Positions 3,050 through 50,549 of a DNA stretch of 56,298 nt are shown here, piece after piece (within the stretch, counting starts at the first letter, position 1; each line of letters opens with the position of its first letter). Origin of the DNA: a virus. The stretch lies in IMG/VR virus record IMGVR_UViG_3300045999_003132, positions 1 through 56,298 of that record; one strand, given 5' to 3'. Both the position numbers and the translations under genes were made by a program. The notes below the pieces were generated by a model. That model searched no databases. It had not been told where the DNA came from and saw only the letters and a program-made list of their open reading frames with translations.

Positions 3050-3174
3050 TGTTCCTTGCGCATTTCAGCAGCACGGGAATTGATGTGTTGTTGGATATGC
3101 CCGCGAATGAGTTGAAGGATTGGTATGACGAGGCTATAAAGCTGCACAATTCAATGAACCGAACGGATGGCTAA
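3016..3174 (+). CDS. Tail chaperone E' extension (-1 frame of the E gene)
   Basis: This is the -1 frame joined to the chaperone by the slip at 3010, adding 52 codons. Its core, MPANELKDWYDEAIKLHN, resembles the small phage P2 GpE (E') family, in which the short extension binds the tape measure protein. It overlaps the tape measure start by eight bases. An ATG at 3049 overlaps the TGA of the upstream frame, so independent reinitiation (41 residues) is an alternative to the fusion. Confidence 0.75.
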   Translation, partial: VERGIIGRGQVMFLAHFSSTGIDVLLDMPANELKDWYDEAIKLHNSMNRTDG

Positions 3175-4930
3175 TCCAATGCGTCTTACGCTTCATCTGA
3201 CTGCCGTGGACAACATGAGCAGGGTGGTATCGAGTGCCATGCGTAACAGCATGAACGCGGTGCATTCCGCTGAGGCTCAGTCGCGCAAGACGGCAGGCGA
3301 GGCCCGTGAAGGGATGTTCGATGCGGGGATGATGGCCGCTGGCGGGGCTGCTGCCTTGGCGTACCCGTTGAAGATGGCTGCTAACTATGAGCGGCTGCGT
3401 ATCCAGATGAACATTCTTACCCGTAGCACGGTAGAAGGTGGCAAGGCGTATAATTCGGTGCTGAAACTTGCCCGTGAAACGCCTCTTACGCTTTCAGAGG
3501 TCGCAACCGCTCAAACCCGTCTTATGGGTTACGGCCAATCGGCCCGTGACGCTGCTTCTGCCGTTAAGATGCTTGGTGACATCACATCGGTAACGCAAGG
3601 TGATTTACAGGGGGCTATTGTGGCCTATGGTCAGGCGGCACAGGAGGGGAAGATGCTGACCCGTGACGTTCGGCAGTTCATCAATTCGGGTGTTCCTGCC
3701 GTGTCCATATTGCAGGACATGTTGGGTAAGGACGCGGACATTTTTAAGATGGCCGAGGAAGGGAAGATAACATTTGACCTTCTGCAAAAAGCAATGACTG
3801 AGGCAACGGCCAAAGGCGGCATGTTCGCTAACGGTCTTAAAGTGCAGGCCGACACGCTGCAAGGTACATGGGTAAAGTTCACTGACAGCATTGAACAGAC
3901 GGCAGCGGTTTTCGGAACGTCCATGATACCAGCGGCAAAGGCCTTGCTAACTCCGCTCATGCAAGGGTTGGATGCCATTGGAAAGTTCATGAGTGAACAC
4001 AAGATATTGGCTCAGGCCATAATGATTGCGGTGGGGGCATTCACCTTGATAGCGTCTGGCGTGTTCGTCTATTCATCGGCCTTATGGATAGCAAACACTA
4101 CGGTTGGAATGTTGATTCTAACATCATTGCGATTCCCGTTCACATTGCTGATAGGTGGTTTCAAGGCGTTAAATTGGTCGCTTTTCGGAACCGTTGAACG
4201 GTTGGTAATGGTGATTGGGTGGATGAGAACATTTGCGCTTACTACCATACCCGCTTTTGTAGCTGGAACCATTGCGGCTATTGCTAAGACAAACATTTGG
4301 ATAGCATCACTGACTGGACTTAGCGCAACAATCTATGGCATACCGTTATTGGGATGGATTCTTGCGGTAACAGCCGCCATAATCGCCATCGGGGTAGCCA
4401 TCTACAAGAATTGGGATGCTGTGTCTGGATTCTTCAAAATGATGTGGAATGAGTTCAATGACTTTCTCCCAAAGGCAAAACAATGGGGTGGCGACCTTAT
4501 TCGGTCAATTAAGGATGGCATAGTTGGTGAGGCTCCTATGCTGTTCGCTGCTGTGGGCAAGGTTGTTGAGTTTACGAGGGGATTCTTCCCTGCGTCACCC
4601 GCCAAACATGGGGCGTTCAAGGACATTCACCGTATCAAAATCATCGAACAGGTCGCTAAGACGGTAAAAGCAAGCCCATTGCGCGATGCGATAGGCCGTG
4701 CTACCGATACGGCCATGAGCGGATTCGGTGGCGGTGCTACTGCTACACCCGCATTCGCTACGGTAGGAGGCGGGTCTGTGGCTGTGAATTACAGCCCTAC
4801 AATCAACTTCGGAGGCGGTGCAAGTGAGGTTGAACGGGCCTCTTTGATGGAGCAGTTGAACGCACACAAGGACGCGGTCGCCCGTATGGTGCAGGACGCT
4901 ATGAGGTCTAACGATAGAAAGCGGTTCTGA
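3167..4930 (+). CDS. Tail tape measure protein (contractile module)
   Basis: This protein sets tail length and lies inside the tube. The 587 residues include the typical N-terminal tape-measure domain (KMAANYERLRIQMNILTRST, LARETPLTLSEVATAQTRLM, GVPAVSILQDMLG, DTLQGTWVKFTDSIEQ). A hydrophobic central region at about 285-420 has several possible membrane helices, and a glycine-rich end follows (GGGATATPAFATVGGGS). The usual rule of thumb of 0.15 nm per residue suggests a tail of roughly 90 nm. It overlaps the E' frame upstream and touches the spike gene downstream. Confidence 0.92.
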   Translation: MANPMRLTLHLTAVDNMSRVVSSAMRNSMNAVHSAEAQSRKTAGEAREGMFDAGMMAAGGAAALAYPLKMAANYERLRIQMNILTRSTVEGGKAYNSVLKLARETPLTLSEVATAQTRLMGYGQSARDAASAVKMLGDITSVTQGDLQGAIVAYGQAAQEGKMLTRDVRQFINSGVPAVSILQDMLGKDADIFKMAEEGKITFDLLQKAMTEATAKGGMFANGLKVQADTLQGTWVKFTDSIEQTAAVFGTSMIPAAKALLTPLMQGLDAIGKFMSEHKILAQAIMIAVGAFTLIASGVFVYSSALWIANTTVGMLILTSLRFPFTLLIGGFKALNWSLFGTVERLVMVIGWMRTFALTTIPAFVAGTIAAIAKTNIWIASLTGLSATIYGIPLLGWILAVTAAIIAIGVAIYKNWDAVSGFFKMMWNEFNDFLPKAKQWGGDLIRSIKDGIVGEAPMLFAAVGKVVEFTRGFFPASPAKHGAFKDIHRIKIIEQVAKTVKASPLRDAIGRATDTAMSGFGGGATATPAFATVGGGSVAVNYSPTINFGGGASEVERASLMEQLNAHKDAVARMVQDAMRSNDRKRF

Positions 4931-14783: not shown

Positions 14784-15409
14784 ACACCCCTATCATCATT
14801 CCGTTCCGAAACCGCGCTGCCCATTTGAAGGAGTTCATTCCGCAAGCGAAACACCCGCTGATTGTAGTTGAACAGGTGGCTGGCAAACCGTTCAACCGTG
14901 GGAAGCTACTGAACATCGGTGCGCACATAGCGTTCGGTGACGGGGCAAGGCACATCATCACGCATGACGTGGACATGATACCTGAGAACGTGGACTACAC
15001 GGAGGGCGATATTGTTCACCTTGCGGGAGCGGCAAGTCAATTTAACTATGCGATGCCATACAACCGCTATTTTGGTGGAGTGAACATCTACTCATCCAAG
15101 GCGTTCTACATGGCGAACGGGTACAGCAACAACTATTGGGGATGGGGCGCGGAGGACGATGACATGCTGTTGCGCTGCGAGGGTACGGGGTTGAAGATTG
15201 AACACCGAAAAGGGCGTTTCACCTCACTCACACATGAACACGCGCTTGTTGACCCGAACGCAAGGAACACGCACAAGGCGAACTGCGAATACCTGCGCAG
15301 CGGATACGATTACAAAAAGGACGGGCTGAACACATTGGACTACTCCATTGTGTCCGAAACGCTGTTGCCGCACATTCACACGGTCAGGGTAATCACCGTA
15401 GATGTCTGA
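14780..15409 (+). CDS. GT7-family beta-1,4-galactosyltransferase-like enzyme
   Basis: The 209 residues carry, in order, the landmarks of animal-type beta-1,4-galactosyltransferases: IIIPFRNRAAHL (5-16), FNRGKLLNIG (38-47), the metal-binding DVD (63-65) in HDVDMIP, YFGGV (97-101), the signature NNYWGWGAEDDD (117-128), and a closing DGLNTLDY then ITVDV. There is no membrane anchor, so it should be cytosolic. The family transfers Gal or GalNAc from a UDP-sugar to a GlcNAc or xylose end; the acceptor here is unknown. It sits directly before the terminase. Confidence 0.85.
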   Translation: MNTPIIIPFRNRAAHLKEFIPQAKHPLIVVEQVAGKPFNRGKLLNIGAHIAFGDGARHIITHDVDMIPENVDYTEGDIVHLAGAASQFNYAMPYNRYFGGVNIYSSKAFYMANGYSNNYWGWGAEDDDMLLRCEGTGLKIEHRKGRFTSLTHEHALVDPNARNTHKANCEYLRSGYDYKKDGLNTLDYSIVSETLLPHIHTVRVITVDV

Positions 15410-17276
15410 GGTTTCCCTTATACGTTCCTTTCTTGAAGGGCTAAGGCCGACACCGCAACTAAAGGTGTGGGAATGGGCCGACCGTTACCGTATGCTGTCG
15501 TCCGTATCTTCCGCAGAGGCGGGGCGTTGGCGTACTTCCCGCGTTCCGTACATGTACGAGATATTCGATAAGCTGTCACCGACCGACCCATGCAGGGAGG
15601 TTGTGCTGATGAAAGGTGTTCAGATCGCGGGAACGGAGGCCGCGCTTAACTGCGTGGGGGCTTACATTGACATCGAACCTTGCCCCATCATGTACGTGAT
15701 GCCTACCGTTGACATGGCGAAGGGTCTGTCAAAGAAACGGGTGCAGCACATGATACAGGAATGCGAGACGCTGAACCGAAAGGTGGCGCAGATGAACAGG
15801 CGCGAAGGTTCTTCATCCTTATTGGAGAAGTTCTACGCTGGCGGTGCGTTGACGTTGACGGGGGCCAACTCCGCAGCGGGGCTTCGGTCGCAGCCTATCC
15901 GCGTACTTATCCTTGACGAGGTTGACGCATACCCTTTGAATATCGAGGGCGAAGGTTCACCGATTAAACTTGCCGAGGCCCGTACAACCACGTTCAGCCG
16001 AAACAAGAAGGTGTTCAAGCTGTCAACTCCGACCGTTGCGGGAAGGTCTGCGATACAACACGCATTGGAGGGGACGGACAAGCGGTATCTACATGTGCCA
16101 TGCCCCCATTGCGGCACGTTCCAGACGTTGAAGTTCGACAACCTGAAATGGCCCAAGGGCGAACCGCACAAAGCGGCCTACCTATGCGAACATTGCGATG
16201 AACTGATAGAGGAGCGCAGCAAGACCGTGATGCTGAACGAGGGCAAATGGGTTCCGTCCGAGCCTGACAACGTAAGCCCATACAAGGCGGGGTATCTAAT
16301 CAACTCACTATATTCCCCGTTAGGGTGGATGTCGTGGACCGAGATAGCGACCAAGTTCCTGTCCGAGAAGGACGACCCTATTCTGTTCCGAACCTTTGTC
16401 AACACCGTGCTTGGCGAACCGTGGGAGGAACGGGGTGACGCGCCTGAGTGGGAGAACATCTTCAATAGGCGGGAGAAGTACCCGATGAACCAACCGAACA
16501 ATGACGTTCACCTGATAACGGTAGGGGCTGACGTTCAGAAGGACAGGATTGAATACGAGGTCGTTGGATGGTGCAGGGACAGGTCAACGTATTCCATCGA
16601 CTACCGCGTTATTCACGGTGACACCTCCGAGCGTCAGGTATGGGACGAACTTTCCAAGGTGGTCTATGAGACATGGTTGCGCCCTGACGGGGTTGAACTA
16701 CCGATGATGCTGATGGCGGTGGATAGCGGTTTTAATACCCAGCACGTTTACGACTTCTGCCGCAGACACGATTCAACCCGCGTCATTCCGATCAAGGGTT
16801 CTGATGCACAGAGGACGGTGGTATCCGCGCCAAGAAGCGTTGACATTGCTATGCACGGTAAGGCAACGGGGTCAATCAAATTGTGGACGGTCGGTTCGTC
16901 CATTGTCAAGTCAGAGGTTTACGCCAACTTACGGCACAACCCGAACGAGGACGGCGCGTTCCCTCCGAACTACTGCCACTTTCCTGAGTACGCACCCGAA
17001 TACTTCAAAGGCATCACAGCGGAACAGCTTGAGTTCAGAATCGTCAAAGGCTATCGCAAGTACGAATGGGTCAAACGGTACGCAAGGAATGAACCCCTTG
17101 ACTGCCGTGTTTACGCCCGTGCAGCCGCTACCGTTGCGGGGATGGACAGGTTCAATGAGCAGCATTGGGATAAGTTGGTCGGCAATTACCGAAAGATAGT
17201 GAAGGGCAAGGATGAGCCGCAAGCCGCAAAGCCGAAACAAGTGAAGCGCAAAAGCGACTTTTGGGGCGACCGATAA
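15402..17276 (+). CDS. Terminase large subunit, GpA family
   Basis: This is the packaging motor and nuclease of lambda A type, 624 residues. The ATPase part has a P-loop-like KGVQIAGTE (71-79) and Walker B VLILDEVDAY (about 168-177). A CPHC...CEHC zinc-ribbon pair (near 234-237 and 262-265) is usual for the family. The nuclease half has ITVGADVQKDRIEYE and MAVDSGFNTQHVYDFC. A basic tail (KPKQVKRKSDFWGDR) closes the protein. It overlaps the GT7 gene by eight bases. GpA enzymes generally cut at specific cos-type sites; no cos site was identified. Confidence 0.95.
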   Translation: MSEVSLIRSFLEGLRPTPQLKVWEWADRYRMLSSVSSAEAGRWRTSRVPYMYEIFDKLSPTDPCREVVLMKGVQIAGTEAALNCVGAYIDIEPCPIMYVMPTVDMAKGLSKKRVQHMIQECETLNRKVAQMNRREGSSSLLEKFYAGGALTLTGANSAAGLRSQPIRVLILDEVDAYPLNIEGEGSPIKLAEARTTTFSRNKKVFKLSTPTVAGRSAIQHALEGTDKRYLHVPCPHCGTFQTLKFDNLKWPKGEPHKAAYLCEHCDELIEERSKTVMLNEGKWVPSEPDNVSPYKAGYLINSLYSPLGWMSWTEIATKFLSEKDDPILFRTFVNTVLGEPWEERGDAPEWENIFNRREKYPMNQPNNDVHLITVGADVQKDRIEYEVVGWCRDRSTYSIDYRVIHGDTSERQVWDELSKVVYETWLRPDGVELPMMLMAVDSGFNTQHVYDFCRRHDSTRVIPIKGSDAQRTVVSAPRSVDIAMHGKATGSIKLWTVGSSIVKSEVYANLRHNPNEDGAFPPNYCHFPEYAPEYFKGITAEQLEFRIVKGYRKYEWVKRYARNEPLDCRVYARAAATVAGMDRFNEQHWDKLVGNYRKIVKGKDEPQAAKPKQVKRKSDFWGDR

Positions 17277-26264: not shown

Positions 26265-26272
26265 TATCTTTG
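26265..26272 (+). promoter_or_regulatory. -7 promoter box of short transcript B
   Basis: TATCTTTG matches TAnnTTTG and begins within the T-rich tail of the preceding terminator. Confidence 0.6.
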
Positions 26273-26275
26273 CCC

Positions 26276-26385
26276 CGTTCCTTTTCCTTTGGATTGGGAC
26301 TTACAGAAGCCTTGCACGTTGTGCCGTATCAACGTGACCCGCAAGGATGGGGTAGGGATGTCCCTGCCGCCTTGCGGGTTTTTCT
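26276..26385 (+). ncRNA. Putative small RNA B
   Basis: About 110 bases lie between the box at 26265 and the terminator at 26337-26385. A CACGTT/AACGTG hairpin precedes the terminator stem, which itself encloses an AGGG/CCCT hairpin. A frame running through this region (to 26393) crosses two terminators and is not credible as a gene. Confidence 0.45.
26337..26385 (+). terminator. Intrinsic terminator
   Basis: ACCCGCAAGG and CCTTGCGGGT pair perfectly over ten bases and are followed by TTTTTC. Confidence 0.8.
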
Positions 26386-26393
26386 TATTTTAG
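26386..26393 (+). promoter_or_regulatory. Variant -7 box before endolysin
   Basis: TATTTTAG, CCGC, then ATG at 26398. It has the same form as the box before the metallophosphatase. Confidence 0.4.
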
Positions 26394-26397
26394 CCGC

Positions 26398-32617: not shown

Positions 32618-32799
32618 AGAAAAGATTTCGCAAGGCTAAAAGCGTAGAAAGCGCAATAATTGACGAAATACTAAATTCGGCAGACCCGTTATTTTTGCAG
32701 AGCATTGAAGATGAAATGGTACTTGCAACGATACCCGATGAACAGCGTCCCAGTGCAAGTCTTTTGCGCCCGAGTGATGACGCTCGTCACTCGGGATAA
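32611..32799 (+). CDS. Small protein of unknown function
   Basis: The 62 residues (MVKKRFRKAKSVESAIIDEI, SIEDEMVLATIPDEQRPSAS) end in an arginine-rich piece encoded by a perfect hairpin. No family is recognised. It is the last gene of the AT-rich operon. Confidence 0.5.
   Translation: MVKKRFRKAKSVESAIIDEILNSADPLFLQSIEDEMVLATIPDEQRPSASLLRPSDDARHSG
32769..32795 (+). repeat. Perfect hairpin at operon end
   Basis: CCCGAGTGA and TCACTCGGG pair over nine bases around a nine-base loop. No T tract follows, so it is an RNA-protecting or pausing structure rather than a clear intrinsic terminator. Confidence 0.5.
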
Positions 32800-32824
32800 T
32801 TAACCAAAACAAACATTACACCCC

Positions 32825-35286: not shown

Positions 35287-35290
35287 ATCG

Positions 35291-35298
35291 TATATTTG
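35291..35298 (+). promoter_or_regulatory. -7 promoter box of primase-helicase leader
   Basis: TATATTTG, exact match, 145 bases before the ATG at 35444, the longest predicted leader in the window. Confidence 0.7.
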
Positions 35299-35301
35299 CA
35301 G

Positions 35302-35443
35302 AACGCCCGATGACAAGGACGCATTAAACAAAGGGGAGCATTCAATGGACATTCATCACGGAGGTAAAGCAACGGTCTGAGGCGGCTCCCCGCTCCCGTT
35401 GGCATTGGCCGTCACCCAATGCACCTCCATCCATTGCTTTACA
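35302..35443 (+). ncRNA. Structured 5' leader, putative cis-regulatory RNA
   Basis: Conformation 1: GTAAAGCAACGG (35364-35375) pairs with CCATTGCTTTAC (35431-35442) as a 12-pair helix enclosing two hairpins, GCGG/CCGC (35382-35393) and GCATTGG/CCAATGC (35402-35422), and ending one base before the ATG. Conformation 2: CAATGGA (35343) pairs with TCCATTG (35430), and GGAGGT (35360) with ACCTCC (35423). The two share strands and exclude each other. Two short upstream frames (MTRTH at 35310, MDIHHGGKATV at 35346) overlap the 5' half. This is the layout of a riboswitch or leader-peptide switch. Confidence 0.6.
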
Positions 35444-37645
35444 ATGAGCAAAATCAGTTTATTCAATCGCCTACCCTCAAAGGGTCGGGTTCACACCTGC
35501 GATGAGATAGTCACCATTTCGGACTTTCTGAACTCCGTAAAGTACGGGAAGTGGAGCGACCAGATAAAGGCCATCCGCGCAATAGCCGATAAGACCGCAA
35601 GGGATAACGCCAAAAAGAACATACCATCCGTTACCATTGCGGGGGTGTTCAAAGAGCGAAAGGCCGAACTACTGATTGAACACAGCGGGTACATTGCCGT
35701 TGACATAGACGGCTACAATGACAAATCGCAGCTACTAGCAGACCCGTACACATACGCCCTGTTCTACTCCGCAAGCGGTAAGGGCGTTGTGGTGGTGGTG
35801 AAGGTCAATCCCGACAAGCACAAAGAGAGTTACCGTTGGCTTTCAAATTACTACTTCACCACATACGGGATTGCAGTAGATGAAGCCCCGAAGTCGGTAG
35901 CCTCCCTGCGTTTCGTATCGTTTGACCCTGACCTATTCATTAACGAACGGTCTAAAAAGTCGGGGGTAAAAGCGGAGCAGAAAGCCCGTCCTCAATCCAT
36001 ACCCGTTGTTCTGCCACAATCGGTAGCCGCTGAAATGTGCGCGGAGTGCGCTTCGCAAGGCCACGACATTGCACCCGATTACGATAGCTATTTCAGGCTA
36101 GGGCTATCACTTGCCAAAGGATTTGGGGAAGAGGGCCGTGCGATGTTTCACATGCTTTGTGGCCCGTCTCCGAAATACGACAGCGTTCAGGCTGACCGCA
36201 AGTACAATGAGTGCCTAAAGACCGCGCCTCATTCAAAGATAAATGTAGGCACGTTCTACTGGATGCTTAAACAGGTAGGCATTCATGCACCGAACACCAA
36301 TCACAGGGCCGTTCAGGTGGCCGCGCTAGGCAAGAAAGCAGGGCGCAACGTGGAGGGCGTGGTTCAGCAGCTTGTTGAGATGGAGGGCATCGGTCGGGAA
36401 CAGGCGCAAGCGTTGGCGAACGAAGTATATCAAAGGGATGACATCGACATTCGAAAGGTGTCAGCTGACCCAGAGAACATCATTGAAGGGGTTATGGAGT
36501 TCATCAAACAGAATCACCCCATAAGACGAAACAGCATAACCCAAAAGCTAGAAGAGAACGGGCAGGAGGTCAGTAAGGAACGGTTGAATACCATTTACCT
36601 ACGGGCGCGTTCCATGTTCAACACTAAGGACATCACATTCGACCTTATCGACCGCGTTATATTTTCGGACTTTACGCATGAGTTCAACCCGATCAACGAA
36701 TACATAGACCGAAACCGTTACCGAAACGGAAGCGGACACATAGACGCGTTGACGCGAACTATAAAGACGGACAGCCCGAACAGCGACACGTTCATTCGCA
36801 AGTGGTGCTTGGGGTGGATAGCGGCAATTAACGGCCACCCCGTGCGCTCCGTTCTTACGCTTGTCGGAGGACAGAACACGGGCAAGACCGAATGGTTCCG
36901 AAGGTTGCCACCGTCACCACTTCGCAAGTATTACGCTGAAAGCAAACTTGACGCGGGAAAGGACGATGACATTCTCATGTGCCAAAAGTTATGGGTAATG
37001 GATGATGAGATGGGAGGCAAGTCAAAACAGGACGAAAAGCGTTTCAAGGAACTGACAAGCAAAAGCACGTTCTCACTTCGCGCACCTTACGGACGGCACA
37101 ATGAGGACTACAAGCGTTTGGCCGTGCTTTGCGGAACTTCAAACGAAGAGGACATCATTAACGACCCGACAGGGAACACGCGTATTCTGCCCGTCCGTGT
37201 CATCAGTATAGACCATGAGGCTTACAATGCCATTGATAAGGATGAGTTGTTCATGGAGTGCGTACGTGCCTATGAAAGCGGTGAAGAGTGGCAGCTTAAC
37301 AAGTCGGAACTTGCCGCTTTGGATGAGATGGGAGTGGAGTTTGAAACCACACCGTTTGAAAGGGAACTGATACTAGCGCACTTCGCACCGCCACACGCGG
37401 GGGCTTACTCTACATTCTTGTCATGTACGGACATGAAGGACGTAATAGAAACGCGAACGAAGCAAAAGCTGATGAGTACAAAACGCTTCGGAATGGAGTT
37501 GAAGCGAATCTTTGGAAAGCCAGTGAGCAAGCGAATCAATGGGTTTCCTGTGAAGGTTTACGAGGTGGTGAAAATGGACTACAACAATCCTACTACATAC
37601 GAAAGCCGCGCCAACACTAGGGAAGAGGACGATGTTCCCTTCTAG
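35444..37645 (+). CDS. Primase-helicase, BT4734-like plus VirE/VapE ATPase
   Basis: The 733 residues contain a BT4734-like primase-type domain at about 1-170 (HSGYIAVDIDGYND, ALFYSASGKGVVVVVKV), a primase C-terminal helical part (PDYDSYFRLGLSLAKGFGEE), and a VirE/VapE superfamily 3 ATPase: LTLVGGQNTGKTEWF (P-loop near 475-482), KLWVMDDEMGG and LAVLCGTSNEEDII. It likely primes and unwinds the phage origin. The ATG at 35444 is preferred to the TTG at 35399, which lies inside the leader structure. Iteron-like repeats follow its stop. Confidence 0.9.
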   Translation: MSKISLFNRLPSKGRVHTCDEIVTISDFLNSVKYGKWSDQIKAIRAIADKTARDNAKKNIPSVTIAGVFKERKAELLIEHSGYIAVDIDGYNDKSQLLADPYTYALFYSASGKGVVVVVKVNPDKHKESYRWLSNYYFTTYGIAVDEAPKSVASLRFVSFDPDLFINERSKKSGVKAEQKARPQSIPVVLPQSVAAEMCAECASQGHDIAPDYDSYFRLGLSLAKGFGEEGRAMFHMLCGPSPKYDSVQADRKYNECLKTAPHSKINVGTFYWMLKQVGIHAPNTNHRAVQVAALGKKAGRNVEGVVQQLVEMEGIGREQAQALANEVYQRDDIDIRKVSADPENIIEGVMEFIKQNHPIRRNSITQKLEENGQEVSKERLNTIYLRARSMFNTKDITFDLIDRVIFSDFTHEFNPINEYIDRNRYRNGSGHIDALTRTIKTDSPNSDTFIRKWCLGWIAAINGHPVRSVLTLVGGQNTGKTEWFRRLPPSPLRKYYAESKLDAGKDDDILMCQKLWVMDDEMGGKSKQDEKRFKELTSKSTFSLRAPYGRHNEDYKRLAVLCGTSNEEDIINDPTGNTRILPVRVISIDHEAYNAIDKDELFMECVRAYESGEEWQLNKSELAALDEMGVEFETTPFERELILAHFAPPHAGAYSTFLSCTDMKDVIETRTKQKLMSTKRFGMELKRIFGKPVSKRINGFPVKVYEVVKMDYNNPTTYESRANTREEDDVPF

Positions 37646-45102: not shown

Positions 45103-45375
45103 TTGATTGTGGACGGTAGAAAGAACAACAAAGGCATAAAGGGAAAAGCGGGCCGCAAACCAAAAGCGGACGAATTGCAGCTACTTGAAACTATGGATGC
45201 CATCCTTGCGCCTCAAAATTTGTGGGCGGCAATAGCTAACAAGGTTCAAAACGGTGACAGCGCGGCCATGAAGATTTGGGCAAGCTACCGTTACGGGATG
45301 CCAAAGCAACAAGTGGATATGAATACCACAATAGTTGAGTTCCCCGCTCCCATCATTGAGTTACCTAATGAATGA
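45103..45375 (+). CDS. Putative terminase small subunit (second module)
   Basis: The 90 residues start with a basic linker (GRKNNKGIKGKAGRKPKADE) and continue in helices (AIANKVQNGDSAAMKIWASY) before an acidic Pro-rich end. This AGRKPKADE-type start followed by helices is common in small terminases and phage DNA-binding proteins. It overlaps the large terminase by four bases. The start is TTG 45103 or GTG 45109. Confidence 0.6.
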   Translation: MIVDGRKNNKGIKGKAGRKPKADELQLLETMDAILAPQNLWAAIANKVQNGDSAAMKIWASYRYGMPKQQVDMNTTIVEFPAPIIELPNE

Positions 45376-46715
45376 GTGGCACACGGATACGACTAAGCGC
45401 GAAACAGGCACAGGCGTGGCGTGAACTTGACCGCCCCGAAATAGCGGAGGTGTTCGCTGGAGGAAGTGCTGGCGGTGGAAAATCGTGGCTAGGTTGCCTC
45501 CGACAGATTTACAGGCGCACCACATACGCAGACACGCGGGGGTTCATTGGCAGACGTGACTACACGGCACTCCGAGATAGCACGATGAAGACCTACTTCA
45601 CGTTGCTCAAAACGATGGGGTACGAAAGTGAGGTGCATTACAGGTACAACGCACAGGAACACACGGTCTACTTTACGAACGGGAGTGAGCAGCATTTCCG
45701 ACACATGAGTTACCAACCGAGCGACCCCGACTATAATCGGTTCGGGTCAACGGAATACACGGACGCGTTCATTGATGAGGCTCCAGAGATAGACAAACGG
45801 GCCGCTGAGATAGTCCTTTCACGTCTGCGTTACAATCATTCCAAACACGGCATAACAAAGGAACTACTGCTAACGGGCAACCCCACGGACAACTGGATAA
45901 AGTACCGCTATGTGATGGATGCGGAAAACAGGTTCTTGGATTTGCCGCCCCATCGCGCCCGTGTGCTGTTCACGTTGGCAGATAACCCCGACACGGCACT
46001 ACGGGAAAGCTATACGCAGACGCTGGAGTTGTTGGATGACTACGACCGCGCCCGATTGCTTTACGGTGACTGGACGGCAAAGGCGAACATAGAGCGTCCG
46101 TTCGCCTCGCAGTTGGACATAGATAGGCATTTCAACCCCTGCGACTTCGACCCGAACAAACCGCTTTACATTAGCTTCGACTTCAACATCGACCCGTTCG
46201 CGATCATTTACGCCCACATTTGGCGGGATGCGGAGGGTTGGCACTTTCACGTATTCGATGAGGAATCAATCAGTGGCGGCACAATAGATGAGGGCTGTGA
46301 GCGGGTGAAACAGAAGGTAGGGCGGTCGGTACTAACGGCCACGGTGACGGGTGACAGGAACGGCACGGCACGGACGATGACACACCGCGACCACCTGACC
46401 GCCTATCAACTCATTCGGCAACGGCTACTCCTATCCGAATCGCAGTTCGACCTACCGGCCAACCCGACCCACGCGAACAGCCGCGAAGATTGCAATTACC
46501 TGCTGAGGCACTTTGATGACTTCCGTGTTGATGCCCGATGCACGAACCTGAGACGTGACCTAAGGACGGTTGAGGTTGACCATGAAGGGAAGATAATGAA
46601 GAGTGACCGAAGCAAAGATGCCCAGCGCGCCGACCATCTTGACGCGTGGCGGTACTTAGTTAACAGCAAAGCCGTACATTCGTGGCGTAAATTCCACATT
46701 GCCAAGCCCAGATGA
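45372..46715 (+). CDS. Terminase large subunit (second, PBSX/Terminase-6 type)
   Basis: This complete 447-residue motor has Walker A FAGGSAGGGKS (28-38), Walker B DAFIDEAPE (near 131-139) and LLTGNPTDNW as a coupling motif. The RNase H-type nuclease carries SFDFNIDP (near 268), GDRNG and RADHLDAWRY. It is unrelated in sequence to the GpA enzyme at 15402 and of the headful/PBSX-like type. All catalytic residues are present, so it is not a relic. The neighbouring small subunit completes the pair. Confidence 0.93.
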   Translation: MSGTRIRLSAKQAQAWRELDRPEIAEVFAGGSAGGGKSWLGCLRQIYRRTTYADTRGFIGRRDYTALRDSTMKTYFTLLKTMGYESEVHYRYNAQEHTVYFTNGSEQHFRHMSYQPSDPDYNRFGSTEYTDAFIDEAPEIDKRAAEIVLSRLRYNHSKHGITKELLLTGNPTDNWIKYRYVMDAENRFLDLPPHRARVLFTLADNPDTALRESYTQTLELLDDYDRARLLYGDWTAKANIERPFASQLDIDRHFNPCDFDPNKPLYISFDFNIDPFAIIYAHIWRDAEGWHFHVFDEESISGGTIDEGCERVKQKVGRSVLTATVTGDRNGTARTMTHRDHLTAYQLIRQRLLLSESQFDLPANPTHANSREDCNYLLRHFDDFRVDARCTNLRRDLRTVEVDHEGKIMKSDRSKDAQRADHLDAWRYLVNSKAVHSWRKFHIAKPR

Positions 46716-47903: not shown

Positions 47904-48121
47904 CCGACCGAATAAACCGCGACCGTCTGGCATGGGCCGACTTCATCCGCGCGGTGGATGAGTTCAACAAACCGCGCACCCCCGTGGCCGAAATGACAAG
48001 GCGCGATTTCATGGATGAATTGGCTACTTTTGTAAAGCGCAAGAAACAAGCGGCTATAGATGGCAGACGAAATAGTAGCAGTATATCGGGCCGAGGTCGA
48101 GCAGTACAAAAAGGCCGTTGA
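47768..48121 (+). CDS. Tail chaperone frameshift extension (GT-like)
   Basis: This -1 frame runs on from the T9 site with no stop. It contains LSFREVADRINRDRLAWADF and RRDFMDELATFVKRKKQAAI, a helical basic domain expected to bind the tape measure. It overlaps the tape measure start (48060) by 62 bases. An internal start at 47834 would give a separate 95-residue protein. Confidence 0.55.
   Translation, partial: SASDVRHIADSASQFSRAVNQTLAGLSNGTKQPDEPPRPLSFREVADRINRDRLAWADFIRAVDEFNKPRTPVAEMTRRDFMDELATFVKRKKQAAIDGRRNSSSISGRGRAVQKGR
48025..48032 (+). promoter_or_regulatory. -7 box before second tape measure gene
   Basis: TACTTTTG fits TAnnTTTG; 27 bases before the ATG at 48060, within the chaperone extension. 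Confidence 0.4.
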
Positions 48122-50549
48122 TGAACTTGTTGGCAAGGTAGACAAACTTGACAAGGAGCAGCGAAAGGCAACTACTGGTGCCGCTCAAATGGGCATCCAA
48201 ATATCCAACGTAGGAAAACAGATTATTTCAGCGTTCGGCATAACAACTGGCATAGCTGGATTTGTTTCCATTCTACGGAATGCGATAAAAATATCGGCTG
48301 ACTTTGAGGCCCAGATGTCAAAGGTTCGGGCGGTTAGCGGTGCAACCAATAAGGAGATGGCCGAACTTGAAAAGACCGCCAAGCAATTAGGCGCGTCAAC
48401 CATGTTCACGGCCACACAGGTAGGTCAGCTTCAAGAGGAATACGCGAAGTTGGGTTTCACCACGGAACAGATACAACAAGCCACAGCCGCAACGCTTGAC
48501 CTCGCAGCCGCAACGGGTTCAAGCCTTGCACAAGCTGCGGAGGTTGCGGGTGCAACGGTTCAGGGGTTCGGATTGGACGCAGCGGAGACGGTACGTGTAA
48601 CGGACGTAATGGCTCAATCATTCAACAGGTCTGCACTTGATATTGAACGGTTCAAAGAGTCCATTAAACTTGTCGCGCCTATTGCACGGGCCGCGAACAT
48701 AGACCTTGAAACGACCACGGCACTACTTGGCGAACTTGCTAACGCTGGTCTAAGTGGGTCAATCGCGGGTACGGCATTGAAGAACCTACTTAGTAAGCTG
48801 TCAGATGAGAACAGCGACCTTAGTAGACAGTTAGGCTTTGCGGTTAAAAACAGCGATGACCTATTCTTAGCCTTTGAGAAGTTGGCGAAGATGAACATTG
48901 ACCTTACGGCGGCAACGGAACTCACAGACGAAAGGAGCAAGGCGGCATTCATTACGTTGTTCAATGGTATCGACACGGTAAAGGAATTGGACGTGGCGTT
49001 GAGGGACGCAGCAGGTTCTACTAAGGAAATGGCCCGTATAATGCAGGACAATCTGCAAGGGTCGTTGACCATCCTTTCGTCAGCATACGAGGGCTTTATC
49101 CTTAAAGTGATGGAGGGCAACGGGCTACTGAAAGACTCCGTTGACGCTATTGCCACGGGTCTATCAAAGTACACGGAGGCGTTATCCATTACAGAACAGA
49201 CGGGGTTCAAAGCGTTGGACGTGGCGTTGCTATTGATAACGGCTAACGGCAAACTAAAAGAGGCACAGGAGGCGGCTACTATTGCAAGCGCGGAGAATGC
49301 CAAGCAATTAGCATTGGATAACGCGGAGATTCTTAAGGCGTTGGGCAGTCAGGCCGATGCGATTCGGGAGGTGGTCAGGCAAGCGAACACGTTAGCCACG
49401 TTGAACGAGGAACTAAAGCTGTTAAAGGAGAACTTGGAAAACACAGAGATAGGTTCTAAGGCGTTCTTTGAGGCGGGTGTTCAGATTGAGAAAAAGGCCA
49501 AAGAGATTGAGGCGGCTATCCGTTCACTTAGGCTTGCAGGAATTGAACCCGCGGGGCTTACATTGCTCAACCCGAAGGCCATAAAAGAGGTCACGGACGT
49601 ATCGTTGAAGTCGTTGAATGACGCACTGGCAAAGGCGAAGAAGAACAAAGATGAAGCCTTTGAGTTTGGGGGTAATTTGAAAAAGGCCGAGGCCGATATA
49701 TTGGCATTGGAGAAGCGCATAAAGTCTTTCAATGATGAAATAATTGAGGGTGGATATAACGTAAGAACCAACGTACTTGAAAATGTACAGGAGCAGGCAC
49801 AGGCCGACATAGACGCAAGGGATGAGAACCTTACAAACGCGCAAATGTTCTTTCAATCCATTCAGGACATTAACAACGCCATCACGTCCGCAATCATGGC
49901 GGGGCATGAGCAGGAACAGATAAGCCTCGACAATCAATTGGAGGCGGGTCAGATAAGCCGCGAACAATATGACCAACGTAGACGGCAACTTGAAAGGGAA
50001 AAGGCGCAAGACGCTAAAACGGCTGCAATATTTAATGCGGTAATTGGAACGGCCCTTGCCGTGGTTAACGCCCTTGCAGTAGGGCCGCCACAGGGCTACA
50101 TCTTGGCCGCGATTTCGGCCGCGTTGGGTGCGGTTGAGATAGGCGTTATTTCCGCTCAACCGTTACCACAATTCGCCACGGGTGTAATCGGGCTGCAAGG
50201 CGCGGGAACGGAGACAAGCGACAGCATACACGCTCGTCTGTCAAAAGGGGAGAGCGTAATGACAGCAGCCGAAACGCGAAAGTATCGCCCAATTTTGGAG
50301 GGCATAAGGCGCGGCACGTTGGATGAGATTATACGGGAGAACTACGTGCGCCCTGCGATAGACACGGCCCTATTAAACGGGTTCGCTGACATGGGCCAAA
50401 GTGCAGACCTAAACGGGATAACGGCCAAGCTGTCCGACCACAACATAATCGCGGCAATGGATCGCAACAGGTCGGCCACGGTGTACGGGTTGAAGATGTT
50501 GGCAGACAAGTTGGACAAACGGACACCGAAACGCGGAGGATATGCTTAG
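48060..50549 (+). CDS. Tail tape measure protein, TP901 family
   Basis: The 829 residues show the TP901 core: FEAQMSKVRAVSGATNKEMA, LGASTMFTATQVGQLQEEYA, KLGFTTEQIQQAT and a following NAGLSGSIAGTALKNLLSKL. Coiled-coil stretches lie at about 420-700, and a hydrophobic segment near 650-700 (AVIGTALAVVNALAVGPPQG) is followed by a C-terminal GAGTETSDSIHARLSKGESV motif common in these proteins. Length predicts a tail of roughly 120 nm. It is unrelated to the 587-residue tape measure at 3167. Confidence 0.93.
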   Translation: MADEIVAVYRAEVEQYKKAVDELVGKVDKLDKEQRKATTGAAQMGIQISNVGKQIISAFGITTGIAGFVSILRNAIKISADFEAQMSKVRAVSGATNKEMAELEKTAKQLGASTMFTATQVGQLQEEYAKLGFTTEQIQQATAATLDLAAATGSSLAQAAEVAGATVQGFGLDAAETVRVTDVMAQSFNRSALDIERFKESIKLVAPIARAANIDLETTTALLGELANAGLSGSIAGTALKNLLSKLSDENSDLSRQLGFAVKNSDDLFLAFEKLAKMNIDLTAATELTDERSKAAFITLFNGIDTVKELDVALRDAAGSTKEMARIMQDNLQGSLTILSSAYEGFILKVMEGNGLLKDSVDAIATGLSKYTEALSITEQTGFKALDVALLLITANGKLKEAQEAATIASAENAKQLALDNAEILKALGSQADAIREVVRQANTLATLNEELKLLKENLENTEIGSKAFFEAGVQIEKKAKEIEAAIRSLRLAGIEPAGLTLLNPKAIKEVTDVSLKSLNDALAKAKKNKDEAFEFGGNLKKAEADILALEKRIKSFNDEIIEGGYNVRTNVLENVQEQAQADIDARDENLTNAQMFFQSIQDINNAITSAIMAGHEQEQISLDNQLEAGQISREQYDQRRRQLEREKAQDAKTAAIFNAVIGTALAVVNALAVGPPQGYILAAISAALGAVEIGVISAQPLPQFATGVIGLQGAGTETSDSIHARLSKGESVMTAAETRKYRPILEGIRRGTLDEIIRENYVRPAIDTALLNGFADMGQSADLNGITAKLSDHNIIAAMDRNRSATVYGLKMLADKLDKRTPKRGGYA

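Follow-up and report, generated by a model that had tools for sequence, protein, structure and literature searches.

The primase-helicase gene of a phage is preceded by a Bacteroidota-type promoter and a leader whose predicted RNA fold stays constant among many relatives while its letters are rewritten. Comparative sequence evidence shows the predicted fold, its position after a promoter at the head of the operon and the rapid replacement of its letters. The leader is carried by IMG/VR virus record IMGVR_UViG_3300045999_003132, whose 56,298 nucleotides (56 kb) are hereafter called the window. Its elements follow in the order promoter, 5' hairpin H0, linker, three-way junction closed by P1 and holding an A-rich joint, P2 and P3, then the P1 3' strand, a spacer of 10–18 nt and the ATG. 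Two long-range contacts join these parts: S1 pairs the linker with the P2 loop, and K pairs the H0 loop with the P3 loop. The architecture has comparative support, has no counterpart in Rfam and extends what is known of Bacteroidota phages, in which RNA control of replication genes has, to our knowledge, hardly been described.

Locus and conserved fold

The features of the leader and its gene, with pairing statistics from 12 aligned leaders, are as follows.

35289–35296, + strand: promoter -7 box TATATTTG of the Bacteroidota TAnnTTTG type, assigned from sequence
35304–35321, + strand: H0, 5' hairpin CGCCC-GATGACAA-GGACG with one C-A mismatch; 98.5% paired, 7/8 pairs changed on both sides
Within 35304–35321, + strand: H0 loop TGAC, the 5' half of the K contact
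35310–35327, + strand: short upstream frame MTRTH*
35333–35339, + strand: S1a, GGGGAGC, pairing with S1b across P1 (pseudoknot); S1 100% paired, 7/9 pairs changed on both sides
35345–35380, + strand: short upstream frame MDIHHGGKATV*, with its ATG 5 nt after S1a, in frame with the primase and closed by TGA
35360–35365, + strand: P1 5' strand, GGAGGT; P1 100% paired, 7/8 pairs changed on both sides
35366–35370, + strand: J12, A-rich joint, UAAAAAC in most relatives
35371–35400, + strand: P2 hairpin AACGG/CCGTT with S1b in its apical part; 87.5% paired, 9/10 pairs changed on both sides
35385–35391, + strand: S1b, GCTCCCC, partner of S1a by swap tests and covariation
35402–35422, + strand: P3 hairpin GCATTGG-CCGTCAC-CCAATGC; 100% paired, 5/7 pairs changed on both sides
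Within 35402–35422, + strand: P3 loop GTCA, which forms the 3' half of K in a kissing contact with the loop of H0
35423–35428, + strand: P1 3' strand, ACCTCC, ending 15 nt before the ATG (10–18 in relatives)
35444–37645, + strand: primase-helicase gene, 733 aa, with BT4734-like N-terminal, PriCT-2 and VapE-like domains

Transcription is inferred to start at about 35301–35304. Leaders of the window's class have a TAnnTTTG-type box at -145 to -153 from the ATG, and in most of the simpler leaders it is found at -99 to -129. In a set of 83 nonredundant primase loci, the boxes, where present, lie mostly at -99 to -160.

Elsewhere, the window contains two terminase-like large subunits (15402–17276 and 45372–46715; GpA type and phrog_979) and two tape-measure-like proteins (3167–4930 and 48060–50549; TMP_3 and PhageMin_Tail). 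These doubled genes would represent two tail gene sets, from either a hybrid phage or a chimeric assembly.

Comparative tests of the fold

The first scan for homologous primase loci yielded 19 relatives, and the close relatives are uncultured virus contigs. Helices were evaluated by a swap test, in which a strand of one phage is paired with a strand of another. This gave p≤5e-5 for S1, P1, P2 and P3 and 2.5e-4 for H0, with the values for H0, P2 and P3 being optimistic because pairing had guided the choice of their segments. For S1, entire regions were compared with no pre-cut helices: pairing the whole linker with the whole P2 loop gave -10.3 kcal/mol for a phage's own strands versus -4.8 kcal/mol for swapped ones (p<5e-5). 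When bulges were allowed, S1 and P1 remained at p<5e-5 and P2 at 8e-4. For K, the test on homologous leaders was not significant (p 0.12 and 0.05), because most loops are alike; this contact is 89% paired, with 2/7 pairs changed on both sides (TGACAA/TTGTCA versus TAGACG/CGTCTA).

In a hand-made stem alignment of 12 leaders, 95.4% of 459 cells are paired and 37 of the 49 pairs have changed on both sides. The covariation score is 0.639, compared with 0.163 for shuffled alignments (0/500 shuffles as good) and at most 0.098 when slid. The partition function for the window assigns P1, P2 and P3 pairing probabilities of 0.9–1.0. Taken singly, the window leader folds no better than its dinucleotide shuffles (z -0.38), and its pseudoknot signal is borderline. 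Two features, the occurrence of G-U pairs within stems and the constant location behind a promoter, point to RNA rather than DNA as the probable acting form. Since the covariation pinpoints the exact pairs to break and restore, the role of the leader is directly testable.

An initial annotation, made from the letters of the window alone, had proposed a regulatory-type structured leader directly 5' of the BT4734/VirE-type primase-helicase, and the predicted fold and the leader's own promoter support this. It had also described two mutually exclusive folds, in which a 12-bp helix (35364–35375 with 35431–35442) closing a three-way junction competes with a second helix built from two pieces. The junction is real, but the helix that closes it is P1. 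The 12-bp helix can be formed in the window with 11/12 pairs (C35373 faces A35433), but homologous leaders do not conserve it (p 0.15 and 0.10 in the swap test), its pairing probability is ~0 and enforcing it costs 6.7 kcal/mol (-34.7 versus -41.4 for the best fold). One piece of the competing helix, 35343–35349 with 35430–35436, has 7/7 pairs present, but this linker-to-tail helix is not kept in homologues (p 0.30 and 0.12). The other piece, 35360–35365 with 35423–35428 (6/6 pairs), is the conserved P1. The annotation had named compensatory change in both helices as its test, and homologous leaders keep neither the 12-bp nor the linker-to-tail helix; of the pairings it named, P1 alone is conserved, and the idea of two exclusive folds is not supported. 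Both helices were rejected on the swap tests, pairing probabilities and constrained folds.

A nine-pair stretch just before the ATG, GTAAAGCAA/TTGCTTTAC (35364–35372 with 35434–35442), forms an unusually strong duplex in the window (-13.3 versus a swapped mean of -4.6) and has a weaker counterpart in locus L019 (-7.7). Judged from these duplexes, it may be a lineage-specific switch.

Sequence turnover

The fold is maintained while the letters of the leader change. The primases of the window and L019 are 95% identical, compared with 67% for their leaders (shuffled 58%), and those of L014 and L016 are 98% alike, compared with 69% for the leaders. The reverse is seen for L004 and L020, with primases 83% and leaders 93% alike. 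These discordant identities indicate that leader and primase change independently, through fast change, exchange or both. They also raise the question of what drives the rewriting of letters under a constant fold, independently of a near-identical primase: the host, competing phages or an RNA partner.

Distribution and operon position

When the letters of the junction were used as a broader search pattern, 53 stretches were picked up, of which the primase leaders alone showed the structure. The covariance model of the three-way-junction class, searched against 25 loci, recovers at E<0.01 known class members only, and two further matches have E values of 0.7 and 2.9. Its search of 201 genomes gave no match, an empty result that carries no weight without a known positive.

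More distant primases have a simpler H-type pseudoknot at the same position. It was scored by the weaker of its two helices, a measure that replaced the summed pseudoknot energy because one strong hairpin can carry the sum. At p≤0.05, the pseudoknot is found in 28/39 promoter-led primase leaders versus 4/44 primase genes without a promoter, in 1/6 host leaders (a small set) and also in 9/21 other promoter-led phage leaders. The strongest of these other leaders are L090, L049, L234 and L279, along with L053 (by the summed-energy test) and L055. The genes behind these six (HNH, zinc-ribbon-like, lipoprotein-like and other) lead into the primase, and the leader keeps the head of the operon where the primase comes after an HNH, zinc-ribbon-like or helicase gene. 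The leader thus marks the operon head. By its predicted pairing, the core of the window leader, in which S1 crosses P1, corresponds to the H-type pseudoknot that heads the primase operon in many Bacteroidota phages.

In L090, an HNH/NUMOD4 endonuclease gene (409–862) lies between leader and primase; the leaders of L090 and L087 are unlike (60% overall) and their primases are 90.5% identical in DNA. Among cultured phages, the relative Cellulophaga phage phi46:1 has a 144-nt gap before the primase, but its best pseudoknot draws on sequence that lies upstream of the promoter match; in Nonlabens P12024S/L and Flavobacterium mumin6-4, the primase follows without a gap. Two further stretches of the window are of note. 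The promoter-led leader at 26265–26397, before ORF 26398, has pairings resembling a pseudoknot, together with a helix, GACCCGCAA/TTGCGGGTT, that runs into U-rich sequence, and is borderline (8/200 shuffles as good). The stretch 32690–32824, before ORF 32825, has a strong hairpin, CCCGAGTGAT/GTCACTCGGG, which is perhaps a terminator.

Upstream frames and proposed mechanism

The two short upstream frames that the initial annotation placed across the 5' strands are present. All 8 nonredundant close leaders have an ATG at -5 to +6 relative to the end of S1a (product of shuffle frequencies 7e-6). In L039, L042, L065, L068, L048, L002, L367 and L081, the pseudoknot lies within an upstream frame of ~30 codons whose end falls at -6 to +4 nt relative to the primase ATG. 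An ATG beside S1a and a frame ending at the primase start fit a role for ribosomes. The window frame at 35345–35380 stops 63 nt before the primase ATG, and classes L087, L269 and L374 have no such frame; with the frame missing in several classes, ribosome control cannot be general.

A U-tract directly follows a pseudoknot helix in 25/28 leaders with a significant pseudoknot, versus 41% expected, which fits attenuation in those relatives. In the window, no U-tract follows P1 (ATCCATTG), so termination is not supported there.

With moderate confidence, the leader is read as an expression-limiting pseudoknot for the replication operon. The transcript would start ~140 nt before the primase-helicase with a cis-acting RNA, in which the 5' hairpin and the three-way junction are locked together by S1 and K, and this folded RNA would limit expression of the operon. 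Where a U-tract follows the helix, the structure may hinder elongation or cause termination; otherwise, as in the window, the limiting feature would be a stable knot located 15 nt upstream of the start codon. Translation of the short upstream frame, entered by ribosomes next to S1a, could then open S1 and relieve the limitation.

Alternative explanations

The placement of the upstream frames also suits translational activation or coupling of the type seen in IncI/IncB plasmid rep leaders, in which leader peptide and pseudoknot act together and translation of the leader frame allows or feeds initiation at the primase. The frames that span the pseudoknot and end near the primase ATG in the eight loci listed above, and the ATG adjoining S1a in all eight close leaders, speak for it. 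The early end of the window frame and the lack of a frame in three classes speak against it, as does the frequency of antisense TAnnTTTG boxes, which, for this promoter type only, are not enriched (5/39 leaders versus 10/44 controls). Coupling is considered unlikely, although it comes ahead of the other rival readings. By analogy, the leader could instead be an autogenous operator, bound by the primase or by a different replication protein of the phage, which would thereby repress its own mRNA. T4 gp32 recognizes a pseudoknot at the 5' end of the mRNA that encodes it (PMC535899), and here too a replication gene has a 5' leader pseudoknot (S1 with P1). Against this reading, which is quite improbable, leader and primase vary independently (L004/L020 and L014/L016 being discordant in opposite directions) and the architectures differ between clades.

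The rapid turnover of leader letters beside near-identical primases, and the exchange of leaders between primases, have a further possible source. If the exposed S1 and K segments paired in trans between phages, as an RNA specificity cassette for superinfection or incompatibility control resembling plasmid antisense systems or the CI RNA of P4, this would explain why the fold stays constant as the letters change. No second copy or antisense match of at least 12 nt is present elsewhere in the window, no integrase was found among the window proteins scanned (part of the frames) and P0001-like primases occur in only 2/396 Bacteroidota genomes; the latter two results give no indication of a lysogenic cycle. 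A trans-acting cassette is assigned a low probability. A broader proposal, also considered unlikely, is that the leaders form a widespread and previously undescribed class of regulatory RNAs in phages. Each would be a pseudoknot module, exchangeable between phages, that heads a Bacteroidota phage replication operon, with a fixed fold and repeatedly rewritten pairing letters, which would serve as a specificity cassette gating primase expression and perhaps let related phages tell RNAs apart. Least probable of all is the riboswitch with two exclusive folds of the initial annotation. A structured leader, a conserved A-rich junction and the strong nine-pair stretch of the window are compatible with it, but the 12-bp helix is neither conserved nor favoured in folding. 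For a riboswitch in general, no ligand pocket is evident, the sole strongly conserved unpaired stretch being the short A-rich joint, and relatives carry several quite different leader architectures at the same site, which argues against one ligand class. The expression-limiting pseudoknot accordingly remains the reading that we prefer.

Comparison with known systems

A search of Rfam 15 with the window and 32 relative loci gave no match at the curated gathering threshold, in agreement with the initial annotation, which had recognized no known class. The best weak match near the leader is the glutamine riboswitch (E 1.4; 14.8 bits versus 35 needed). Literature searches found no account of this leader RNA. 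A human-microbiome RNA candidate near D5_N and integrase domains in Bacteroidetes, known here by its description rather than by sequence comparison, is palindromic.

The H-type pseudoknot riboswitches preQ1-I and SAM-II place a compact pseudoknot shortly before the start codon. The window leader resembles them in this respect but differs in having no Rfam match, no conserved ligand core and a quick turnover of letters. The CI RNA of satellite phage P4 is a structured immunity leader with internal complementary segments that heads an operon with a primase-helicase, and it acts in lysogeny via termination by the processed RNA. The structured leader, the complementary segments and the primase-helicase at the operon head are shared, but no processed CI-type RNA was found in the window, nor a lysogeny gene among the window proteins scanned (part of the frames).

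Nearest in logic are the IncI-type rep leaders and T4 gp32, with membership established in neither. Leaders of the IncI-alpha repZ/repY type have a leader frame and a pseudoknot before a replication gene, together with an antisense RNA. The present leaders share the frame and the pseudoknot, and several relatives have a frame that stops where the replication gene starts; in contrast, the window frame ends early (63 nt upstream) and antisense promoters of the TAnnTTTG type show no enrichment. Work on these and the related IncB and IncL/M plasmid leaders is cited in PMC10724649. In T4 gene 32, the operator consists of one pseudoknot, ~28 nt long, from which gp32 nucleates along UUAAA-rich RNA (PMC535899). 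Like it, the window leader sets a 5' pseudoknot before a phage replication gene. Unlike it, the leader forms a three-way junction of 140 nt, tied by two long-range contacts, and varies independently of the protein.
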